Shown here in pieces: positions 54,236 to 64,000 of a DNA stretch of 64,000 bases. The DNA is from Gulosibacter molinativorax (lineage in GTDB: Bacteria; Actinomycetota; Actinomycetes; Actinomycetales; Microbacteriaceae). Positions within the stretch are counted from its first letter, which is position 1. Each line of letters starts with the position of its first letter. The stretch is taken from positions 1,178,001-1,242,000 of the forward strand of contig NZ_CP028426.1 of the NCBI RefSeq assembly GCF_003010915.2, written 5' to 3'. The translations under genes and the position numbers were made by a program. The notes beneath the pieces were generated by a model. It saw only the letters and a list, made by a program, of their open reading frames with translations, was not told the DNA's origin and did no database searches.

Positions 54236-54745
54236 TCACCCACCAAGCAACCCCGTAACCTCGCCCTCATACGTCACGATAAGCTCATCCCGCGCTCGGG
54301 TCGCCGACACGTAGAGCAGCGCCGTCTCGTGCCTGCGCCGCTCGGCCCGCACCGCCTCGGAGGCACCATTCATCGGCGCCGGGAATCGACCATTCGACAT
54401 GTCGTACAGCAGCACCCGCGAGAACTCGTGGCCCTTCGACTGGTGCATCGTCATCGTCACGACCGAAACCTTCACGCCCTCGCTCGAAGCCTGCGCGAAA
54501 CGCGCGGGTATGCCTACGTCCGACAGGAACGTCGCGATCGACTGCGCATCGTCTCGCTTCCGTGCGAGCACCGCCATCGTCAGCGCATCCACGCCGTCAT
54601 CGATCCAGTGGCGCACGACTGCCTGCACGACATCGATTTGTTGGTGCAGATTGTGCCTTGACGCATCCGCCACGCGACGCTTGTAACCAGATAGCCGCGA
54701 TGACGTGATCACACCCAATAAATATTGAACCAATTTCTGTGTCAC
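54236..54745 (-). pseudogene. Displaced 3-prime copy of the SF1 helicase gene
   Basis: A 169-codon frame whose residues from about 37 (QIDVVQAVVRHWIDDGVDAL) to the end match residues about 636-769 of the 771-residue helicase at 56684-58999. Motif V (TMTMHQSKGHEFSRVLLYD) and motif VI (LLYVSATRARDEL) are kept. The nucleotide alignment is gap-free at a constant offset of 2451 bases from 54241 to about 54640. Changes are scattered; by eye roughly 85-90 percent is identical. The first 35 codons are unrelated, there is no Walker A, and it cannot be an active helicase. Confidence 0.85.
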
Positions 54746-55963: not shown

Positions 55964-56641
55964 CTAGCGTTGCGATGGCCTCCGGTTAAGGACTTCCGAA
56001 ACTTTGCTGCCGCCCGTGACCCAGTTCGCCACTTCAGTATCGATGCTTCGAACAAGTTGGAACGCTTTCTTGACTTCATCCTGCACGTCGATATTTAGCA
56101 AGGGTTCCATATGGGACACCCGATTGCGAAGTTGGTGCAGGCGAGCCACGCGCCAGAACGTAATTTCCCCATCCGGGTCCTCCTCATTGGGGAACGCGTA
56201 AGTGAGTGCCTCCCGCCAGAGACGTGCTCGATTCGAGTTGTCCGTACTGTTCCCAGCGCCTGGCTGGTGATTCGGTAATAGGTCTTTCCAAATGCCAAAC
56301 ATCAGTTGGGCCAGGACATCATCATGGGACACGGTTTCGCCGTATCTGCGATGATTGGAATTCCGACGTTCCGCTTCTCGTGTTGCGGCTTCCAATGCCC
56401 GCTTCCGCTTGTTCGCTGAGAGACTGCGCAACGGCGCTGCCGGTTCCTCAAGTAGCCAACTACGCCGACCGCCGGTTTCCTTCGTATTCCAGCTCTGAAG
56501 TTCCTTGTCCATCGCGTTACGCAGGACAACCTCAGTCACACCAAGAACAGATTGGACCGCGGAAGTAAGCTCTAGGTGCCATTGATAAAGGGCGAGTGCG
56601 CGCTTTTCGTTATTGCCCGTAGCGTCGAGGTACGGACGCAT
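55964..56641 (-). CDS. Abi-type HEPN protein
   Basis: 225 residues. RALALYQWHLELTSAVQSVL and GVTEVVLRNAMDKELQSWN match the Abi_2-like N-terminus of abortive-infection proteins. The HEPN RNase motif R-x4-H is present in ARLHQLRNRVSHMEPLL (about residues 171-187). HEPN proteins of this kind usually cleave RNA when triggered. A TAA lies 11 codons upstream of the ATG at 56641, so the start is confined. The gene begins 42 bases after the SF1 helicase stop in the same direction and lies inside the 2.45-kb unit. Confidence 0.75.
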   Translation of the reverse strand: MRPYLDATGNNEKRALALYQWHLELTSAVQSVLGVTEVVLRNAMDKELQSWNTKETGGRRSWLLEEPAAPLRSLSANKRKRALEAATREAERRNSNHRRYGETVSHDDVLAQLMFGIWKDLLPNHQPGAGNSTDNSNRARLWREALTYAFPNEEDPDGEITFWRVARLHQLRNRVSHMEPLLNIDVQDEVKKAFQLVRSIDTEVANWVTGGSKVSEVLNRRPSQR

Positions 56642-56683: not shown

Positions 56684-58999
56684 TCAAGCGTCACCAAGCA
56701 ACCCCGTAACTTCCCCCTCATACGTGACGACAAGCTCGTCGCGCGCCCGCGTCGCCGACACGTACAGCAGTGCCGCCTCGTGGCGACGGTGTTCATCCCG
56801 CACCGCCTCGGATGCACCGCGCAACGTCGCCGGGAACCGCCCCCGAGACATGTCGTACAGCAGCACCCGCGAGAACTCGTGGCCCTTCGACTGGTGCATC
56901 GTCATCGTCACGACCGAGCCCTTTACGCCCTCGCTCGAAGCCTGCACGAGCCGCGCCGGAATTCCGGCATCCGACAGGAACGTCGCGATCGACTGCGCAT
57001 CGTTTCGCTTCCGCGCGAGCACCGCGATCGTCAGTGGGTCCACGCCGTCATCGATCCAGTGCCGCACTTCCGCCTGCACGACGTCGATCTGTGCGCCACC
57101 CGCCGGCGTCCCCACTAGCCTCGGCGCAGGCCCCCGCCGCGCAGACACGTAACCCGACGCATCCTCGAGGGTGCCCTCGCCGGTCTCCCAAGTCTCACCA
57201 CGAAGCGCCTCAAGCGCGAAGTCGAGCGTCTCCTGCGTAGTCCGGTAGTTCAGTTTCAACCGCCGCGAACGGCCACGGAGATCAATCCCGACCCGCGCCA
57301 TCCGCACCGGTCGACCGTAGATCCGCTGGTGCGCATCTTCAGCGATAAAGAGATCGTTGGCACCCGGCCGAGCCAGCGCCCGCAAGAACTGCCACTGCGG
57401 GGCGACGAGGTCCTGGCCCTCATCGACCAGCACGTGATCCGCCAGGCCGCCTTCCACGCCAGCCGCAGCAACCGCGCCAATTGCCGCGAGCTCCGGGAAC
57501 GTCACCTCGCGGTCCACGCGCTCGCTCAGCCGATACTGCTCGATCGCATTCCACACATCGACCCGTTGCTTTCGCCCGAGCCGCACGCCGCTGCCGAGCC
57601 GAGAGGTTCGCAGGTAGTCGTCACGAGAGATGATTCGCTCACGCAGCACAATATCGAGGTACTCCTCGTCGAGAAAATCCGCGTCCGCGAGCGGGCCAAG
57701 CACGGCCTGCATGTTCTGCGCCACCGTCGCCCACTGCGTCGACTGCTTCGTGACAGGGTTCCGCCCCGCAATCGAAGATCCGATGACTTCGACGCTCGCC
57801 GCGTTGAACTGGCGCTTCCAACGCCGCTGCACCTCGGCCACGAGCTGATCGACGCCGCCGATGTAGATGCCCGCCTCGCCAAGCCTGTTCGCAAGCTTCA
57901 GCTTCGGGTCGAGCCGTTGGAGATCGCGGCTCAGCATCCGTGCGAGCGACCGCGTGAACGTCGTCAGCACGATCCGCGCATCCGGATTCGCAAGCGCGAG
58001 CCGCCGCGCGCGATGCAGCAGAATCACGGTCTTGCCAGTACCCGCGCCCCCGGTAAGGCGGAACGTCCCGGCGTAGTCGCGGTCAACGTAGTGCCGCTGG
58101 TCCGGGTGCAGAAACACCGTCCACGCGCCGAAGTCCTCGGCCTCGATCACGCGTCGCAGCTCATCCTGCCCCTCGACGTACGTGAACTGACGGCGAGCGG
58201 CCGGATGCTGGAAGCCACGCAGAATGCGCTCGTCCTCGGTCTGGACGTGGTCGGGCTCGGGGGTGGATGCGCGGGCTGGCTCGGCAGGTTCGTCGACGGC
58301 GTCACTTTCATCGATTTCGTCGACGGTGTCACTGTCATCGATGGGTTCGGTAATCTCCGCCAGGATGCCCTCGATCGGCTGCCCCTCGAGCATCGCGATC
58401 ACCGCGAGCTCCTGCCAGGCATTGCCGAACGCATCGACCAGCTCGCTCAGCTCGGCCTCGTCGCGGGCCGCCATGAGGCGCTCGGCATCGGCCACCGAGA
58501 ATCCGACGTCCTCGACGAGCCCCGCCAGGGTGTAGCCCTTGCGTTCGAGCACGGGGGTCACGATGAGCCCGGCCGCCGTCGCCTCGGCCGCCTTCTGCTG
58601 GGCCGCGGCGATCTCCTGCGCCTTCGCGACCACGTCGTCGACGTGCTGCGAGGCCTCTCCCGCGCCAACCTCGATGATCTCATTGACGCCATTAACCGGG
58701 TTCACCTGCAGCCTGCGGGTCTTCGCAATCTCGATCGCCTCGTCGTGCTCCCACACGCCGATGAACACGTACGTCACCTCACCGCCCGGCGGGTCGAGCC
58801 GGAACAGCACCGCGCGCAGGCCATCGTCGACGCGTCCGGTGCGCGCACGCGGATCGGCAGCGTTCACCATCGGCTCGATGTGCAGCCCCGGCGCGGTGTC
58901 GTCCTCGTAGAGCTTCGTCACGAAGTTGAACACCTTCGGCTTCACACTGCCGTCGATCTTGTTCGACTTCTGTTGCGCCCACACCACCTGCGGCATCAC
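56684..58999 (-). CDS. SF1 UvrD-like helicase with RelE-like N-terminal domain
   Basis: 771 residues. Walker A GGAGTGKT at 317-324, Walker B LVDEGQD at 525-530, motif IV LNYRTTQE at 583, motif V HQSKGHEF at 702, motif VI LLYVSATRARDEL at 744. Residues about 15-115 (FNFVTKLYEDDTAPGLHIEP, YVFIGVWEHDEAIEIAKTRR) look like a RelE/ParE fold: a basic helical start, a hydrophobic strand and HDEAIEIA. An acidic linker (215-250) joins it to the helicase. It overlaps the large SF2 helicase gene by four bases (ATGA, 58996-58999), so both are co-translated. Its 3-prime end is duplicated at 54236. Confidence 0.85.
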   Translation of the reverse strand: MMPQVVWAQQKSNKIDGSVKPKVFNFVTKLYEDDTAPGLHIEPMVNAADPRARTGRVDDGLRAVLFRLDPPGGEVTYVFIGVWEHDEAIEIAKTRRLQVNPVNGVNEIIEVGAGEASQHVDDVVAKAQEIAAAQQKAAEATAAGLIVTPVLERKGYTLAGLVEDVGFSVADAERLMAARDEAELSELVDAFGNAWQELAVIAMLEGQPIEGILAEITEPIDDSDTVDEIDESDAVDEPAEPARASTPEPDHVQTEDERILRGFQHPAARRQFTYVEGQDELRRVIEAEDFGAWTVFLHPDQRHYVDRDYAGTFRLTGGAGTGKTVILLHRARRLALANPDARIVLTTFTRSLARMLSRDLQRLDPKLKLANRLGEAGIYIGGVDQLVAEVQRRWKRQFNAASVEVIGSSIAGRNPVTKQSTQWATVAQNMQAVLGPLADADFLDEEYLDIVLRERIISRDDYLRTSRLGSGVRLGRKQRVDVWNAIEQYRLSERVDREVTFPELAAIGAVAAAGVEGGLADHVLVDEGQDLVAPQWQFLRALARPGANDLFIAEDAHQRIYGRPVRMARVGIDLRGRSRRLKLNYRTTQETLDFALEALRGETWETGEGTLEDASGYVSARRGPAPRLVGTPAGGAQIDVVQAEVRHWIDDGVDPLTIAVLARKRNDAQSIATFLSDAGIPARLVQASSEGVKGSVVTMTMHQSKGHEFSRVLLYDMSRGRFPATLRGASEAVRDEHRRHEAALLYVSATRARDELVVTYEGEVTGLLGDA

Positions 59000-61900
59000 G
59001 CACCCCCTTGCTCGACCACAACGCGGTCGTTGAAGTAACCAATCACTCCGTCGGCGTCGCGCACGTCATACCCCGCGGAGGTCACTAGCTGCAATTCCTC
59101 ATCACCCAGCTCCGGCGCAAACACGAGGTGCTCGTCCTTCCACAGCGCGAGCACCAGCACCCCCGCCGCGGCCTCATCGCCGACGACGGGCGGAGGCACG
59201 ACGCCCGACTCGAGCAGCGGCGCAAGCGCCGTCTTCTCCTCGTCCAGGGCGTACTCGAGCGCATTGCTCCAGTCGGTCGCGAACACGATGTCCGCGCGGC
59301 CCCCCGGCCTGTCCTCGGCACCGGATGCGCGCCCCGCCGAAAGCGCAGGCTCCCGTTCATTTCCGGCAGAGCCCGTGGATGCGAACTCGGTCGCGCGCGG
59401 CACCTCAGCTTCCGACACAGCCCGCGCCGGCGCGGCACCCGCTGCCTCTCCCGCAACCACCGGTTCCCCGCTCAGCAGCGACCGCGTCGAAATCACGGTC
59501 TGCTCGGCGTCGAACCCGAGCACGTTGCCCCAGTGCAGGTACTCGCGCCACTGCTCACGGAACCCGACACTCGCAAGCGCATCGTTGCTGTCGTCGAGCA
59601 CGAGTGCCGTTTCAAACACGGGCCCCGCCTTCACATACGCCGTCACCGCGACGAACGCACCGTCGCGGATCTGGGCGGACCCCCGGCCACCCGCGGGAAG
59701 CGGGCCGTCCAGCAGCGCGAGCGCCGCATCCGTCACCGACCTCCCGCCGAGGTCCGCGGCCGTATCGGGCCCAATCATGAGCGTCGGCAATGCCGGCAGG
59801 ATGCGCGACCACGCCTCGCGGGCATGGCGCGGGTTCCGCATCCAGTCAAGGATGCGACGCATCGGGTTCTCGAAGAGCCGCTCGGTATCGCCCGCGTTCA
59901 GCCCAAGCAGAGCCCCGAGCTGGCCGAACGTCGGCCGGGACCGCGCCAACTCGGGCACCCGCGTCGGCACGCCCGCGAGGAAGTCCTGCACGTCGTCCCA
60001 CGTGAGCGAGATCACCGAGACATCCGGCAGCGCCCGAATCTCTTCGCGCTTGCGGGCGTCTTCGGCGAGGCGATTCACTGCCTGCGTCGCATGGAACTGC
60101 ATCCCGTCGAGGAAGACGGCGAGCTTCCCATCGGCGGCATTCTCGGATTCGAAGAAGAAGTCCGCGCGCGCATTCGCGATGTTCACCTCGGGCCGCACCG
60201 TCCGGCGCGGCTGGGAGGGCATCGTTACGGTGAGCGAGTTCCCGTAGGTTCCGGGCTGCTGCGTGACCGACGCGCCGAGCTCCTGCAGTCCAACGAGCAG
60301 CGCCTTGCGGAAGAGCTGCTCGAGCGCCGAGCCAGCCTCGACCTTTCCGGGGTCTTCCTCCACGACCTGCCACTTCGCGGCCCGCGAGGCAGCAGCATCC
60401 GCGGCATCCCGCCCCCACCCGAGCAGCTGCCGCAGCACGCGCACGGCGGTCTCGCGCCACACCGACTTCGTCGCCCCCGGGGGCGCGAACGGCAGCAGGC
60501 AGCGGTGGCAGGCCGAGCGACGCTCGTCGGCACACGGGCACGCCTCGACCACATCCAGCGCGGCCAACAGGATGCGCTCGAGCCCGTCACGCGTCGCGTG
60601 ATCGGCGAGGTAGCCGGTGCCGCCGGGCACGCGGTCGTGCACGAGCAGGCTATCGAACGTCGCGGTGCCGAGGCCCGAGTGCGACACATCCTGCACCGCC
60701 GCGATGTCGAGGTGGCTCGGGTCGCCGCCGATCGTCTTGCGCAGGCCGAGCCGCAGCGCCGCGGCGAGCGACGGCAGCACGTAGGGGTCGCCAGCGGCCA
60801 TCCCTTCGGGGAGCCGCACGAGCATCCCCTGTGTGGTGAGCGTGCGGCTGAGCGCGACGTTCACCGGATCCTCGTCGCGGTTCTTGCGGTGCGAGCACCA
60901 CGGCCGGTGCTCGCGCCACGAGTTCTCGCCGGGCTGGGTGTCGAGCTGGCCGCACTCGCGACACACGCGAAACAGCGGCGCCTGCCGCTCGTTGCCGCCC
61001 AGGATGCGCTGCACCCCGCCGGCGCTCTCCCCCGAGCTGCCGAGGTTGAGGGTCCGCAGAGTCACCTCGCGCAGGTACTTCACCGCGATCCCCGTGTTCT
61101 CCTCGAACCACTGCGCGAGCACATTCTTCGGCTCGAAGTCGGCGAGCTCGACGCTCGTAAAGAAGCTCCGCACGCGGTCGTCGCTCGAGTCCGAGATGAG
61201 GTGCTCGTCGCGGCGCACCTGCGCCGACACCTTCTCGAGCTCGATCACATGCAGCCGCTGCCCCTTGTCCGCAAACGCGGCCTCGCCGCAGCGCGGGCAA
61301 GGCCCGATCGTGGTCGCGGTCGCCAGCCCATTGGATGCGGCGGTCAGGTCCTCGACGTATCCGCACCTCGGGCAGCAGGCCCAGTCGTGCACGGCCTCGC
61401 CGTTCGCGCCGGTTTCGACGCTGTCGATCTCGATCTCGAGCCCCTGCGCGTAGAACGTCGCGCCGGGCGCGAACTCGCGGATGGCGTTCCTCGCGTCCCG
61501 CGAGTAGGTGAAGGAGTCGGCATGGAACTCCTGCGTGTCAGCATCGATCCAGCTCACCCCGACGTCGAGGGTCACCGAGTCGTCGAGCAGCGTGTAGTTG
61601 GGCAGGATTCCTGCACGCTCGAGCGCGCTGACCCAGTGCATCCCCTCGAGGTCCTGCCGCGTGCGCGCGAGCATCCGCATCGTCGCCTTCGCCGCGCGCA
61701 GCTCGTCCTTGTCTTCCTCGGTCGGGGCGGGCCCGTCGACCTTGTCCTGCAGCTCCGCGATCGCCTTCGTGGTCGCGTTCAGGCGGTGGCTGAGCCCTTC
61801 GAGCTCGCTCGCAAAGCGGCGGGATGCGCTGCTCAGGTCCTCGTGAACGGGAACCATCCCGCGCTCGTCGGGTTGCAACCAGTCCCGCAGGCTCTGGATG

Positions 61901-64000
61901 CTGTCCTCGCGCAGCCCGCGCTGGCTGAGTACCCCGGGGCATTCCTCAACAACCCCAAAACTCCTCAAGAACCGCTCGAGCAGTTCCTCCCCGCGGGTCG
62001 AAATCTCCTCGCGGATATCCCCGAGCGGCGTGCCCGGCCCATCGGTGAGCAGCACATCCTTCGCCAGACGAACCGCCTGCTGCCCACCATCTGCGGCGAC
62101 CTGGTCGAAGACCGCGGCGAGGAACTGCCGCTTCAGGATCTCCCCCGCGTCGAGGTAGGTCGCAGGCGGCGTCACCTCGCCGTCGATCAGCTCGAGCGGG
62201 TCCTGATACCACGCGAGCTGGTCGTGCCGCCCGGGTACGAACGCCAGTGCCAGCGCGCTACCGCTCAGTCGCCCGGCGCGGCCGACGCGCTGCACGTAGC
62301 TCGCGACGGTCTGCGGCAGCGACGCGAGCACGACGGTCGAGAGGTCGCCGATGTCGATTCCCATCTCGAGGGTGGGCGTCGCGACGAGCACGTTCGGCGC
62401 ATCCGGCGCGGGGTCGGTGCTCTTGAACGCCCCCTCGTACGCCAACCGCACATCGTCCGGCAGCAGGCTCGTGTGCTCGCGCGCGACGACGCGGCGCATA
62501 TCGGCCTCTTCGTACAGGCTGCGGTAGAAGTTCGGTTTCTTCAGCGCGTGGCGCTGCAGCGTGCCGCCCTCGCACTGCATCCCGGGGCATGGGCTGCCGG
62601 CGAGCTGGGCGACGGTCGTGGGGCTGCCCGCGGTGAGCGCACCGCAGCGGTCGCACTCGAGCATCGTGTTACCCGCCTCGCGGTCGGCGGCGGATGCGGG
62701 GCTCACCAGGATGCGGTCGGGCGTGATCCCGAAGGCGTGGCTCCCGCCGCCACGGGTGATCGGATAGGTATCGAGCAGCCCGCCCTCGGCGAGCGACTCG
62801 AACAGGCGCCGCGCGAGTCGACCGCCCGCGTCCTTCGGCACGCCGAAGAGTCGCGAGGTCCAACGCGCGTACCAGCCCTGCGGTGAGGCGAGGTCATCGA
62901 GTAGGAACTCGACCTTGCCCTGCTTGGGGTTCGCACCGACCCGCGCGAACGCGGGCGCGCTACGGCCGCGTGGGAATGCGGGCATGCCCTCGGCCTTCGG
63001 TCGGCCGCCCCACACGCGATAGCGCATACCGCTGTCGGCGATGTACGTCTTGAGCCACTGGTGATAGATGCCGCCGCGCGAACGCAGCTCCTCGAGCGTC
63101 CCGCGGGCCCACGCGACGAGCGTCGCTGGCGACACGACCCCGTCCGCGCCGAGCTCGGCGTCGAACTCGAAGCCGGTCACCGCATCCCGCGCGAGCCGCT
63201 CCAGCAGCGTCGCCGAGCCGGATACGACCTCGACGGTGACTGAGCCGGTGCGCTCGAGCGTGCGCGCGAACGACGACTGCAGCCCGAACTCGAGCTGCAG
63301 GTCGAACGCGAGGCGCTTCGCGACGCGCAGGCGCACGTTCACGTCGATGCTCGCGGCGTCCTCGGTATCCCAGAACGAGCGAAAGCTTTCGCGTTCCACG
63401 ATGTCCGGCCCCAGCAGCCGGTACCGCTCCGAGCGGGTCTGCGCGCGGGCGACCAGCTCGGTCGAGAGCTCGTCGAGGGTGCGCGGCTGGTCGCCGAGCG
63501 CGCGGCGGATCGCGTTGCGCAGCCCAAACGTGTGCGCGCGGCTCTGCACGAAGCCGGCGCGGTGCGCGGCGTCCTGCACGCTGTCGGTGAAGACGAGTTC
63601 TTTCTTCTCGGCCTCGTCGAGATCCCCGTCGCCGAAGAGCGCGGTCGTGACGACCGAGAGCATGGTCGCGACTGCGGCACCCATGAAGCGGATGCCGTCG
63701 CGGCGACCGCAGGCGGGGCACGTCTGGCTGTTGGATTCCTTGCTCGCGTCTTCGCCGTCGAGCCAGCGCACGGGCAGGATGTTCGAGTCGGCCTGGCCGT
63801 GATCGCGCTCGTCGCCGGCGAGGTCGGGATGCGTCGCAAACACGCGACCGTTGGGCACGTCCCACCACCCGAAGCCGGGGACGGGTGCGTTGCTCGTGTA
63901 GTGCTGATCGGCCTCGCGGTCGGCGTAGATGAGCGCCCGGAACGTGCCGGTCCGCTTCACGGCCGTCTCGCGCGGGTTGACCTCTTTCTTCTCGAGGTCA
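58996..64000 (-). CDS. Very large SF2 helicase with zinc ribbons, DUF1998/MZB module and Vsr-like nuclease tail (5-prime end outside the window)
   Basis: At least 1667 residues; the frame is open to base 64000, so the N-terminus, including Walker A and DExH, is missing. Counting from the codon at 63960: zinc pair CPAC (81-84), CDRC and CPGMQC (436-463), helicase motifs V and VI (ATPTLEMGIDIGDLSTVVLA 527-546; QRVGRAGR 557-564), zinc ribbon CPRC/CPRC (863-891), CREC (1000-1003), DUF1998 core RVPGGTGYLAD (1110-1120) with MZB cysteines CPC...CHRC (1141-1154), and a PD-(D/E)xK/Vsr-like segment (1210-1330; RADFFFESE, LAVFLDGMQFHA, DARKREEI). The organisation recalls MrfA and DISARM DrmA/DrmB. Coupled to the SF1 helicase by ATGA. 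Confidence 0.85.
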   Translation of the reverse strand, partial: DLEKKEVNPRETAVKRTGTFRALIYADREADQHYTSNAPVPGFGWWDVPNGRVFATHPDLAGDERDHGQADSNILPVRWLDGEDASKESNSQTCPACGRRDGIRFMGAAVATMLSVVTTALFGDGDLDEAEKKELVFTDSVQDAAHRAGFVQSRAHTFGLRNAIRRALGDQPRTLDELSTELVARAQTRSERYRLLGPDIVERESFRSFWDTEDAASIDVNVRLRVAKRLAFDLQLEFGLQSSFARTLERTGSVTVEVVSGSATLLERLARDAVTGFEFDAELGADGVVSPATLVAWARGTLEELRSRGGIYHQWLKTYIADSGMRYRVWGGRPKAEGMPAFPRGRSAPAFARVGANPKQGKVEFLLDDLASPQGWYARWTSRLFGVPKDAGGRLARRLFESLAEGGLLDTYPITRGGGSHAFGITPDRILVSPASAADREAGNTMLECDRCGALTAGSPTTVAQLAGSPCPGMQCEGGTLQRHALKKPNFYRSLYEEADMRRVVAREHTSLLPDDVRLAYEGAFKSTDPAPDAPNVLVATPTLEMGIDIGDLSTVVLASLPQTVASYVQRVGRAGRLSGSALALAFVPGRHDQLAWYQDPLELIDGEVTPPATYLDAGEILKRQFLAAVFDQVAADGGQQAVRLAKDVLLTDGPGTPLGDIREEISTRGEELLERFLRSFGVVEECPGVLSQRGLREDSIQSLRDWLQPDERGMVPVHEDLSSASRRFASELEGLSHRLNATTKAIAELQDKVDGPAPTEEDKDELRAAKATMRMLARTRQDLEGMHWVSALERAGILPNYTLLDDSVTLDVGVSWIDADTQEFHADSFTYSRDARNAIREFAPGATFYAQGLEIEIDSVETGANGEAVHDWACCPRCGYVEDLTAASNGLATATTIGPCPRCGEAAFADKGQRLHVIELEKVSAQVRRDEHLISDSSDDRVRSFFTSVELADFEPKNVLAQWFEENTGIAVKYLREVTLRTLNLGSSGESAGGVQRILGGNERQAPLFRVCRECGQLDTQPGENSWREHRPWCSHRKNRDEDPVNVALSRTLTTQGMLVRLPEGMAAGDPYVLPSLAAALRLGLRKTIGGDPSHLDIAAVQDVSHSGLGTATFDSLLVHDRVPGGTGYLADHATRDGLERILLAALDVVEACPCADERRSACHRCLLPFAPPGATKSVWRETAVRVLRQLLGWGRDAADAAASRAAKWQVVEEDPGKVEAGSALEQLFRKALLVGLQELGASVTQQPGTYGNSLTVTMPSQPRRTVRPEVNIANARADFFFESENAADGKLAVFLDGMQFHATQAVNRLAEDARKREEIRALPDVSVISLTWDDVQDFLAGVPTRVPELARSRPTFGQLGALLGLNAGDTERLFENPMRRILDWMRNPRHAREAWSRILPALPTLMIGPDTAADLGGRSVTDAALALLDGPLPAGGRGSAQIRDGAFVAVTAYVKAGPVFETALVLDDSNDALASVGFREQWREYLHWGNVLGFDAEQTVISTRSLLSGEPVVAGEAAGAAPARAVSEAEVPRATEFASTGSAGNEREPALSAGRASGAEDRPGGRADIVFATDWSNALEYALDEEKTALAPLLESGVVPPPVVGDEAAAGVLVLALWKDEHLVFAPELGDEELQLVTSAGYDVRDADGVIGYFNDRVVVEQGGA

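Follow-up and report, generated by a model that had tools for sequence, protein, structure and literature searches.

At the end of a 64,000-nt stretch of the Gulosibacter molinativorax genome (hereafter the window; positions 1178001-1242000 of contig NZ_CP028426.1, in a 3.5-Mb genome of two contigs), two adjoining helicase genes form the second half of an operon that is cut by the window edge. The complete operon has the order armA-armB-armC-armD, all on one strand, and only a part of armC and the whole of armD lie inside the window. The gene names are those of the anti-phage system ARMADA type II, to which we assign the locus with high confidence. Coordinates beyond 64000 continue the window numbering into the adjoining 20-kb stretches and are called extended (Table 1).

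Within the window, armC stays open for 1667 codons up to position 63999. A first-pass annotation, made from the window sequence, had put the product of this gene at more than 1,650 residues, which is correct for the visible part; the whole protein has 2245. It had also placed the upstream part of the operon outside the window, where armC indeed runs to 65733 and has armB and armA upstream of it on the same strand. Past position 64000, where it had proposed to look for methyltransferase, PLD or further helicase genes, a PglX-like methyltransferase and an SNF2 helicase were found, in good agreement with its view of a defence-type operon (for PLD, see below).

The junctions of the operon are tight, with -4 nt at C/D, -1 nt at B/C and +1 nt at A/B. 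The start codon of armD is GTG (or the ATG immediately after), placed on the TGA stop of armC. The armC-armD pair is translationally coupled, as the annotation had stated, although the four overlapping nucleotides read GTGA and not ATGA.

Domains of the four proteins

ArmA matches Pfam SNF2-rel_dom (1.5e-14). Among the families of PADLOC 2.0.0 (2023; best 25 per protein), DrmD is closest to it (2.1e-92), followed by BrxHI (8.7e-55) and HmaA (6.9e-51), and DrmA models are matched as well. ArmB matches Pfam Eco57I (1.1e-12) and, in PADLOC, most closely the model of type IIG restriction endonuclease-methyltransferases (E=0), then DrmMI (1.3e-53); it has no PDB sequence match at E<=0.001. NCBIfam adds matches of ArmA to RapA (1e-38) and of ArmB to BREX-2 PglX (2.1e-7), both under the model cut-offs. 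The PADLOC labels of the operon proteins, i.e., DrmD, REase_MTase_IIG, DruE and GajB, are taken here as relatives and not as names; no ARMADA-named family occurs among the matches listed.

The annotation had described the two window genes as a superfamily 2 helicase with an MZB module and a superfamily 1 helicase, and the Pfam matches confirm this: DEAD (7.1e-19), Helicase_C (7.1e-11) and MZB (1.4e-10) in ArmC, UvrD_C (2.9e-19) and UvrD-helicase (2.6e-13) in ArmD. The MZB match of ArmC is the sole one in the genome at E<=0.001, so that, by this test, there is no separate MrfA-type gene. Several zinc ribbons had been proposed for the giant helicase. In line with this, the predicted ArmC sequence carries Cys residues that are invariant in a 10-sequence alignment including the window: C559/C562, C672/C675, C1027/C1030, C1049/C1054, C1454/C1457, C1479/C1482, C1591/C1594, and C1732/C1734/C1742/C1745. 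The best PADLOC model of ArmC is DruE3 (1.5e-77), and its best PDB match is a 2108-aa 'DEAD/DEAH box helicase' (9tu7-9tuc, 1.8e-34); similarity to the YprA structure 6znp is also found (1e-14). DruE of Druantia type III is described, in an excerpt of PMC13192584, as a helicase-nuclease that loads on 3' single-stranded DNA. By analogy, this may serve as a lead for ArmC, not as a test of it.

At the C-terminus of ArmC, the pattern E...DF...DG...H...D..KR is invariant in 30 sequences. REase_MTES_1575 is matched by 24 of 30 ArmC C-termini at E<=1 (4.1e-7 for the best of them and 0.0076, under the cut-off, for that of the window), and DUF559 by two. In hhalign, the RPDFV...FTHG..H motif is aligned with E. 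coli Vsr (probability 24%, E 8e-4 in one comparison), while the nuclease domain alone gives a single weak sequence match in the PDB (3r3p, 0.77). Because of the invariant pattern, the REase_MTES_1575 matches and the alignment to Vsr, there is good support for a predicted PD-(D/E)xK domain, and its assignment to the Vsr subtype is likely.

ArmD resembles the PADLOC models NERD+UvrD (1.6e-33) and GajB (7e-23), and UvrD/PcrA in the PDB sequence comparison. By sequence, its N-terminus finds a single weak PDB match (8gad, 0.29). An AlphaFold2 model of this part, built on 56 sequences, reaches a predicted local distance difference test score of 89.3. Foldseek ranks 1-22 against the PDB are all of the RelE/YoeB/YafQ/ParE type, with a best E of 1.2e-3 at probability 1.00 and a template modelling score to the target of about 0.65; this count includes entries titled merely toxin or toxin-antitoxin complex and the 'conserved hypothetical' entries 2otr and 1z8m, which we take to be of the same type. 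R53, R56, R62 and H85 are invariant in the 56 sequences. According to the model, the ArmD N-terminus is a RelE/YoeB-like fold.

Correspondence to ARMADA type II

Bell et al. 2025 (PMC12458937) describe ARMADA type II as a strict order of ArmA (BrxHII/RapA-like), ArmB (PglX-like), ArmC (YprA-like with a Vsr-type nuclease end), and ArmD (a GajB-like UvrD helicase with an N-terminal RelE-like domain). Extras reported for ArmC are a BrxA-like insert, zinc beta-barrel and MarR-like inserts, and a coiled-coil extension. The E. coli system protects against 13 of 80 phages, requires all four genes and lets the cells survive. Among eight point mutants, protection is lost in six and partly lost in two (ArmD D454N and ArmB G605A), and the locus of strain ATCC 8739 was tested by deletion.

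The same four genes lie in E. coli ATCC 8739 with junctions of -4, -1 and +2 nt. Aligned to them over the greater part of their length, the window proteins show identities of 35% over 839 columns (ArmA, 2e-135), 35% over 1436 (ArmB, E=0), 27% over 2085 (ArmC, 3e-178) and 30% over 770 (ArmD, 6.5e-78). All eight residues mutated by Bell et al. are present: K152 and D251 in ArmA, G621 and N997 (NPPW) in ArmB, K124 and D248 in ArmC, K323 and D526 in ArmD. Thus, the window operon is like ARMADA type II of E. coli NCTC 12900 and ATCC 8739 in gene order, junctions, tested domain calls and these eight residues; it differs in the size of ArmC, which has 2113 aa in E. coli and 2245 here. According to its published description, ARMADA type I likewise has YprA-like, BrxHII-like and PglX-like genes, but its YprA gene generally comes first and an ArmD is undescribed, whereas armC is third here and armD is present. 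The annotation had suggested an uncharacterised system and had itself named a gene-for-gene match to a known system as the finding that speaks against this. Since the operon agrees with ARMADA type II in each of its four genes, that suggestion is not supported, and the locus is one more case of a defence system named recently rather than a new one.

Two other known systems share components with the operon. The closeness of ArmA to DrmD and of ArmB to DrmMI (2.1e-92 and 1.3e-53) and an MZB module as in DrmB would fit a variant of class 1 DISARM (DrmD, DrmMI, DrmA/DrmB), whose SNF2-like DrmD and methyltransferase DrmMI have homologues in the window operon. However, class 1 DISARM has DrmA and DrmB where the window operon has a one-piece ArmC: there is no split drmA/drmB, helicase and MZB module are joined in one open reading frame (ORF) of 2245 aa, and ArmC is far nearer to DruE models than to DrmA (1.5e-77 against 5.2e-18). 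The window operon adds a UvrD-like gene, which is not known as a DISARM part. PLD (DrmC) gave no match at E<=1e-3 in ten proteins (four of the operon, six neighbours), nor at E<=0.01 in eight flanking proteins. We regard a DISARM variant as highly improbable. BREX was considered and rejected, as no PglZ match was found among the scanned operon and neighbour proteins (Pfam, NCBIfam; best 25 PADLOC families per protein). The annotation had already seen no fit to either system in the window.

The giant DruE-like helicase is also what the operon has in common with Druantia type III, and DruE3 as the best PADLOC model of ArmC could indicate a relative of that system with an unrelated partner. Yet ArmC scores 591 bits against E. 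coli ArmC and only 112 and 58.5 bits, in two pieces, against E. coli DruE, while the remaining three genes match ArmA, ArmB and ArmD and bring in a methyltransferase and an SNF2 motor by which the operon differs from Druantia III. Furthermore, PLD domains are reported for Druantia III (PMC12458937), whereas the ArmC end looks Vsr-like. No DruH model is among the PADLOC matches listed (best 25 per protein), and no search aimed at DruH was made. We regard a relative of Druantia type III as extremely improbable.

The distribution of the operon was studied in two sets. In a sample of 98 other genomes of relatives, 10 of them of the same genus, an ArmC-like gene (E<=1e-50) occurs in eight, including two of the same genus; the distribution is patchy. 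Five of eight fetched relatives have a complete A-B-C-D operon; armA is cut by a contig end at L022, armB is in pieces at L023, and about 6 kb of other genes separate armB and armC at L025 (fetched from armB on). The second set consists of the best 80 of at least 566 confirmed ArmC relatives from a genome contig scan, all of them Actinomycetota by their record titles. The eight relatives partly recur in it (e.g., G038 is L077), so that the counts of the two sets are not to be added.

In 79 of the 80 loci, ArmD is encoded downstream of ArmC on its strand, at a distance of no more than 3.5 kb, the exception being L088, where the contig ends inside armC; conservation of the pair across genomes had been proposed as a check by the annotation. 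The ArmC-ArmD junction is measurable in 66 loci and overlaps or lies within 30 nt in 64 (55 between -8 and +30; nine computed overlaps of 67-403 nt, which are probably a matter of start-codon choice). With 64 of 66 junctions this close, the armC-armD coupling is not due to chance. At least 9 kb upstream of armC are visible in 60 loci; 54 of these have ArmB, and 50 are ordered A-B-C-D. This bears on the reading that two housekeeping repair helicases, MrfA/YprA and UvrD, merely adjoin by chance. Similarity to YprA (6znp, 1e-14) and to UvrD/PcrA is what such a reading can invoke, but the two genes remain paired in numerous Actinomycetota and in E. coli, occur patchily in close relatives, and have a methyltransferase and an SNF2 motor beside them; the probability of this reading is next to nil.

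At two loci (L060:8128-9981 and L051:5734-7731), genes matching Orf5/HEC-06/type IV restriction models lie between armB and armC; other defence genes thus nest inside some ARMADA operons.

Several points weigh against the assignment to ARMADA type II. The proteins share just 30-36% global identity with those of the E. coli system that was tested (ArmC 30%, ArmD 33%), and all four stay below the NCBIfam model cut-offs (ArmA scores 333 bits against DrmD, where 610 are needed). The Vsr subtype of the ArmC nuclease is read from sequence only, and Pfam Vsr itself is touched by one of 30 C-termini (E=0.12); the RelE fold of ArmD has no Foldseek match at E<=1e-3. In addition, the choice of the best 80 loci favours close relatives. 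Six of the 60 loci lack armB in the approximately 10 kb before armC, and armB lies within 200 bp of armC in just 39. Against this stand the identity and order of the genes, their junctions, the motifs and the domains, and we hold it to be very probable that the locus encodes an anti-phage system of ARMADA type II, which would act as such in this host.

In the most probable mechanism, ArmB would read a short DNA site, the methylation of which would serve to distinguish self from non-self. ArmA and ArmC may be motors that are drawn to phage DNA, or switched on by it, when this DNA is unmarked or replicating, and ArmC would cut it by its putative nuclease. ArmD would provide a further motor, and RNA cleavage or ribosome binding may be the task of its RelE-like domain. 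As the cell would survive, the defence would be direct and non-abortive.

Flanking genes and chromosomal slot

The annotation had listed a DUF3800 gene, a HEPN Abi gene and a toxin-antitoxin pair as neighbours. Their identification is weaker than it had put it. The HEPN gene, directly 3' of armD, matches PADLOC PD-T4-5; in Pfam, all matches of these neighbours fall below cut-off (HEPN_Swt1 0.0021 and Abi_2 0.096 for the HEPN gene; others in Table 1), and the toxin has none at E<=5. As fixed parts of ARMADA, the three were rejected: no relative of any of them (E<=1e-4) was found in the 80 loci, and the 3' flank of armD differs in two loci of the same genus. At one of these, G007, a ZacA-like gene (L020:1637-2893, strand -, 6e-123) lies directly 3' of armD, followed by a long ORF that is PLD-like by eye; at the other, G004 (L021), an ORF with an XRE-like N-terminus, NTPase-like by eye, takes this place. 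Since the genes 3' of armD differ between loci of one genus, the HEPN, toxin-antitoxin and DUF3800-like genes look like exchangeable cargo outside the core. In E. coli ATCC 8739, the neighbours are instead Druantia III and Zorya II.

Table 1. Coordinates of the operon, its predicted domains and its neighbours in window numbering (extended past 64000 where indicated).
Feature	Position	Strand	Evidence
armA, SNF2/RapA/BrxHII-like translocase, 1038 aa	70657-73773 (extended)	-	PADLOC, Pfam, homology to E. coli ArmA
armB, PglX/type IIG-like adenine methyltransferase, 1640 aa	65733-70655 (extended)	-	PADLOC, Pfam
armC, YprA/DruE-like giant helicase, 2245 aa	58996-65733 (extended; contig 1236996-1243733)	-	PADLOC, Pfam
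MZB/DUF1998 zinc module, ArmC residues 1656-1746	60496-60768	-	Pfam MZB 1.4e-10
PD-(D/E)xK nuclease-like domain, ArmC residues 1795-1925	59959-60351	-	invariant motif
armC/armD stop/start overlap, 4 nt (GTGA)	58996-58999	-	
armD, GajB/UvrD-like superfamily 1 helicase, 771 aa, with N-terminal RelE/YoeB-like domain	56684-58999	-	Pfam
RelE-like domain (modelled), ArmD residues 1-130	58610-58999	-	AlphaFold2 model and Foldseek
HEPN/Abi-like gene, 225 aa, directly 3' of armD	55964-56641	-	PADLOC PD-T4-5 8.5e-13
Toxin-antitoxin-like pair, 96 aa and 119 aa	54770-55419	+	antitoxin PhdYefM 0.0039, below cut-off
ORF of 169 aa, partial second armD 3' end	54236-54745	-	Pfam UvrD_C 4.4e-18
DUF3800-like gene, 198 aa	53458-54054	-	Pfam DUF3800 E=0.08, below cut-off

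A partial copy of armD, which the annotation had not listed, flanks the toxin-antitoxin/HEPN block: positions 54241-54641 are 86% identical to 56692-57092 over 401 nt. This copy suggests that the block was acquired through recombination inside the 3' end of armD. The partial copy, the toxin-antitoxin pair and the HEPN gene just 3' of armD could also be taken as traces of an event that affected the locus around armD, left a second armD 3' end and went along with a loss of activity. Such an inactive ARMADA II locus is unlikely, however, as each of the four core genes has a long uninterrupted reading frame in which the motifs are intact, and the duplicated piece lies outside armD.

In G004, an ARMADA locus occupies the same slot, with an MFS/methionine-synthase-like side and a fadD side (FadD 83% identical), while in G007 its position relative to the fadD homologues of that genome is different. 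A clean empty site was not found among five fadD-homologue loci of the same genus from genomes without ARMADA (L123-L127), none of which has any ARMADA gene. The window's ABC-transporter genes lie within about 10 kb in L126 and L127, on the opposite side of fadD; L123 and L124 (9 kb each) have fadD alone in common with the window, and L125 has fadD and weak matches. With identities of 60-67%, the fadD genes of these five loci may be paralogues.

Beyond the 5' side of the operon lies a divergent DUF222/HNH gene. About 11.6 kb past the operon's 5' end, a Fic-domain gene was observed (extended 85416-86663, strand +; PADLOC SoFic 5e-62), and a DDE_3 transposase gene, presumably IS630-like, is found at extended 87392-88480 (+) between genes that are smpB-like and ftsX-like by eye.

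A recombinase and an inverted second ArmB end in relatives

The window's own locus has neither a recombinase nor an inverted second ArmB end. Such an arrangement does occur among its relatives: a tyrosine recombinase gene lies upstream of armC in four of the 80 loci (L033, L055, L057, and L077), and also in the genomes G271 (L117/L118) and G130 (L119). The recombinases of L033, L055 and L057 form one close family with that of L077, to which they are 64-72% identical. Their distance to armC is approximately 25 nt in L077, 44 nt in L055, 600 nt in L033 and 2.2 kb in L057. An inverted C-terminal piece of ArmB lies beside the recombinase in L033, L057 and L077, while the contig of L055 starts 195 nt before the recombinase; a contig end is close by in all four.

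G271 (C2:822001-850000) offers an unbroken view of armA, a full armB, an inverted second ArmB end, the recombinase, armC and armD. The second end corresponds to residues 1092-1628 and shares identical inverted blocks of 158, 255, 267 and 335 nt with the first. The two ends differ mainly at residues 1360-1479 of the window ArmB (49 of 114 identical) and less at 1120-1159 (23 of 39) and 1240-1279 (31 of 40). In 100-residue bins of ArmB, 1400-1499 is the least conserved between the window and G007 (45%) and G004 (55%). Since the two ends in G271 differ mainly in one segment, the inverted copies probably provide for a specificity that is switched by inversion through a segment resembling a target recognition domain.

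The recombinase was also searched for genome-wide in 396 genomes of the order, 394 of the class and 398 of the family, the samples overlapping. Matches were obtained in three genomes at E<=1e-70 in the order search and in one each at E<=1e-90 in the class and family searches. In all three genomes with E<=1e-90, G130, G271 and G038 (L077), the recombinase lies beside armC. Around a weaker match in G114 (49%), the 6 kb retrieved contain no Arm gene, but the contig ends 243 nt past the recombinase on the side where armC would be expected. The inversion reading is weakened because, of the six cases with a recombinase, four were taken from loci selected by their ArmC (one of these four was also found genome-wide), and because L057 has its recombinase 2.2 kb off; the cases known from chosen loci only are not counted as independent association. 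On balance, we lean slightly towards ArmB as the specificity subunit of ARMADA II, acting through a variable C-terminal segment (approximately 1360-1480) that is inverted by an upstream recombinase in several actinobacterial lineages.

Phase-variable pglX genes are known in BREX-like systems. The terms 'phase vari', 'inversion' and 'invertase' do not occur in the main text of PMC12458937, and no paper on ARMADA inversion was among those listed in literature searches on phase variation.

For a system with published tests in E. coli (PMC12458937), the G. molinativorax locus provides an actinobacterial example with intact motifs. If the role proposed for ArmB is true, ARMADA II would exist in a fixed form, as in the window and in E. 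coli, and in a phase-variable form, and ARMADA would operate in the manner of a BREX or type I restriction-modification-like system whose target site can be moved. The comparison also points to the part of ArmB that may determine specificity. If confirmed as switches, the loci with an inverted ArmB end would allow a direct test of self/non-self discrimination by ArmB methylation.

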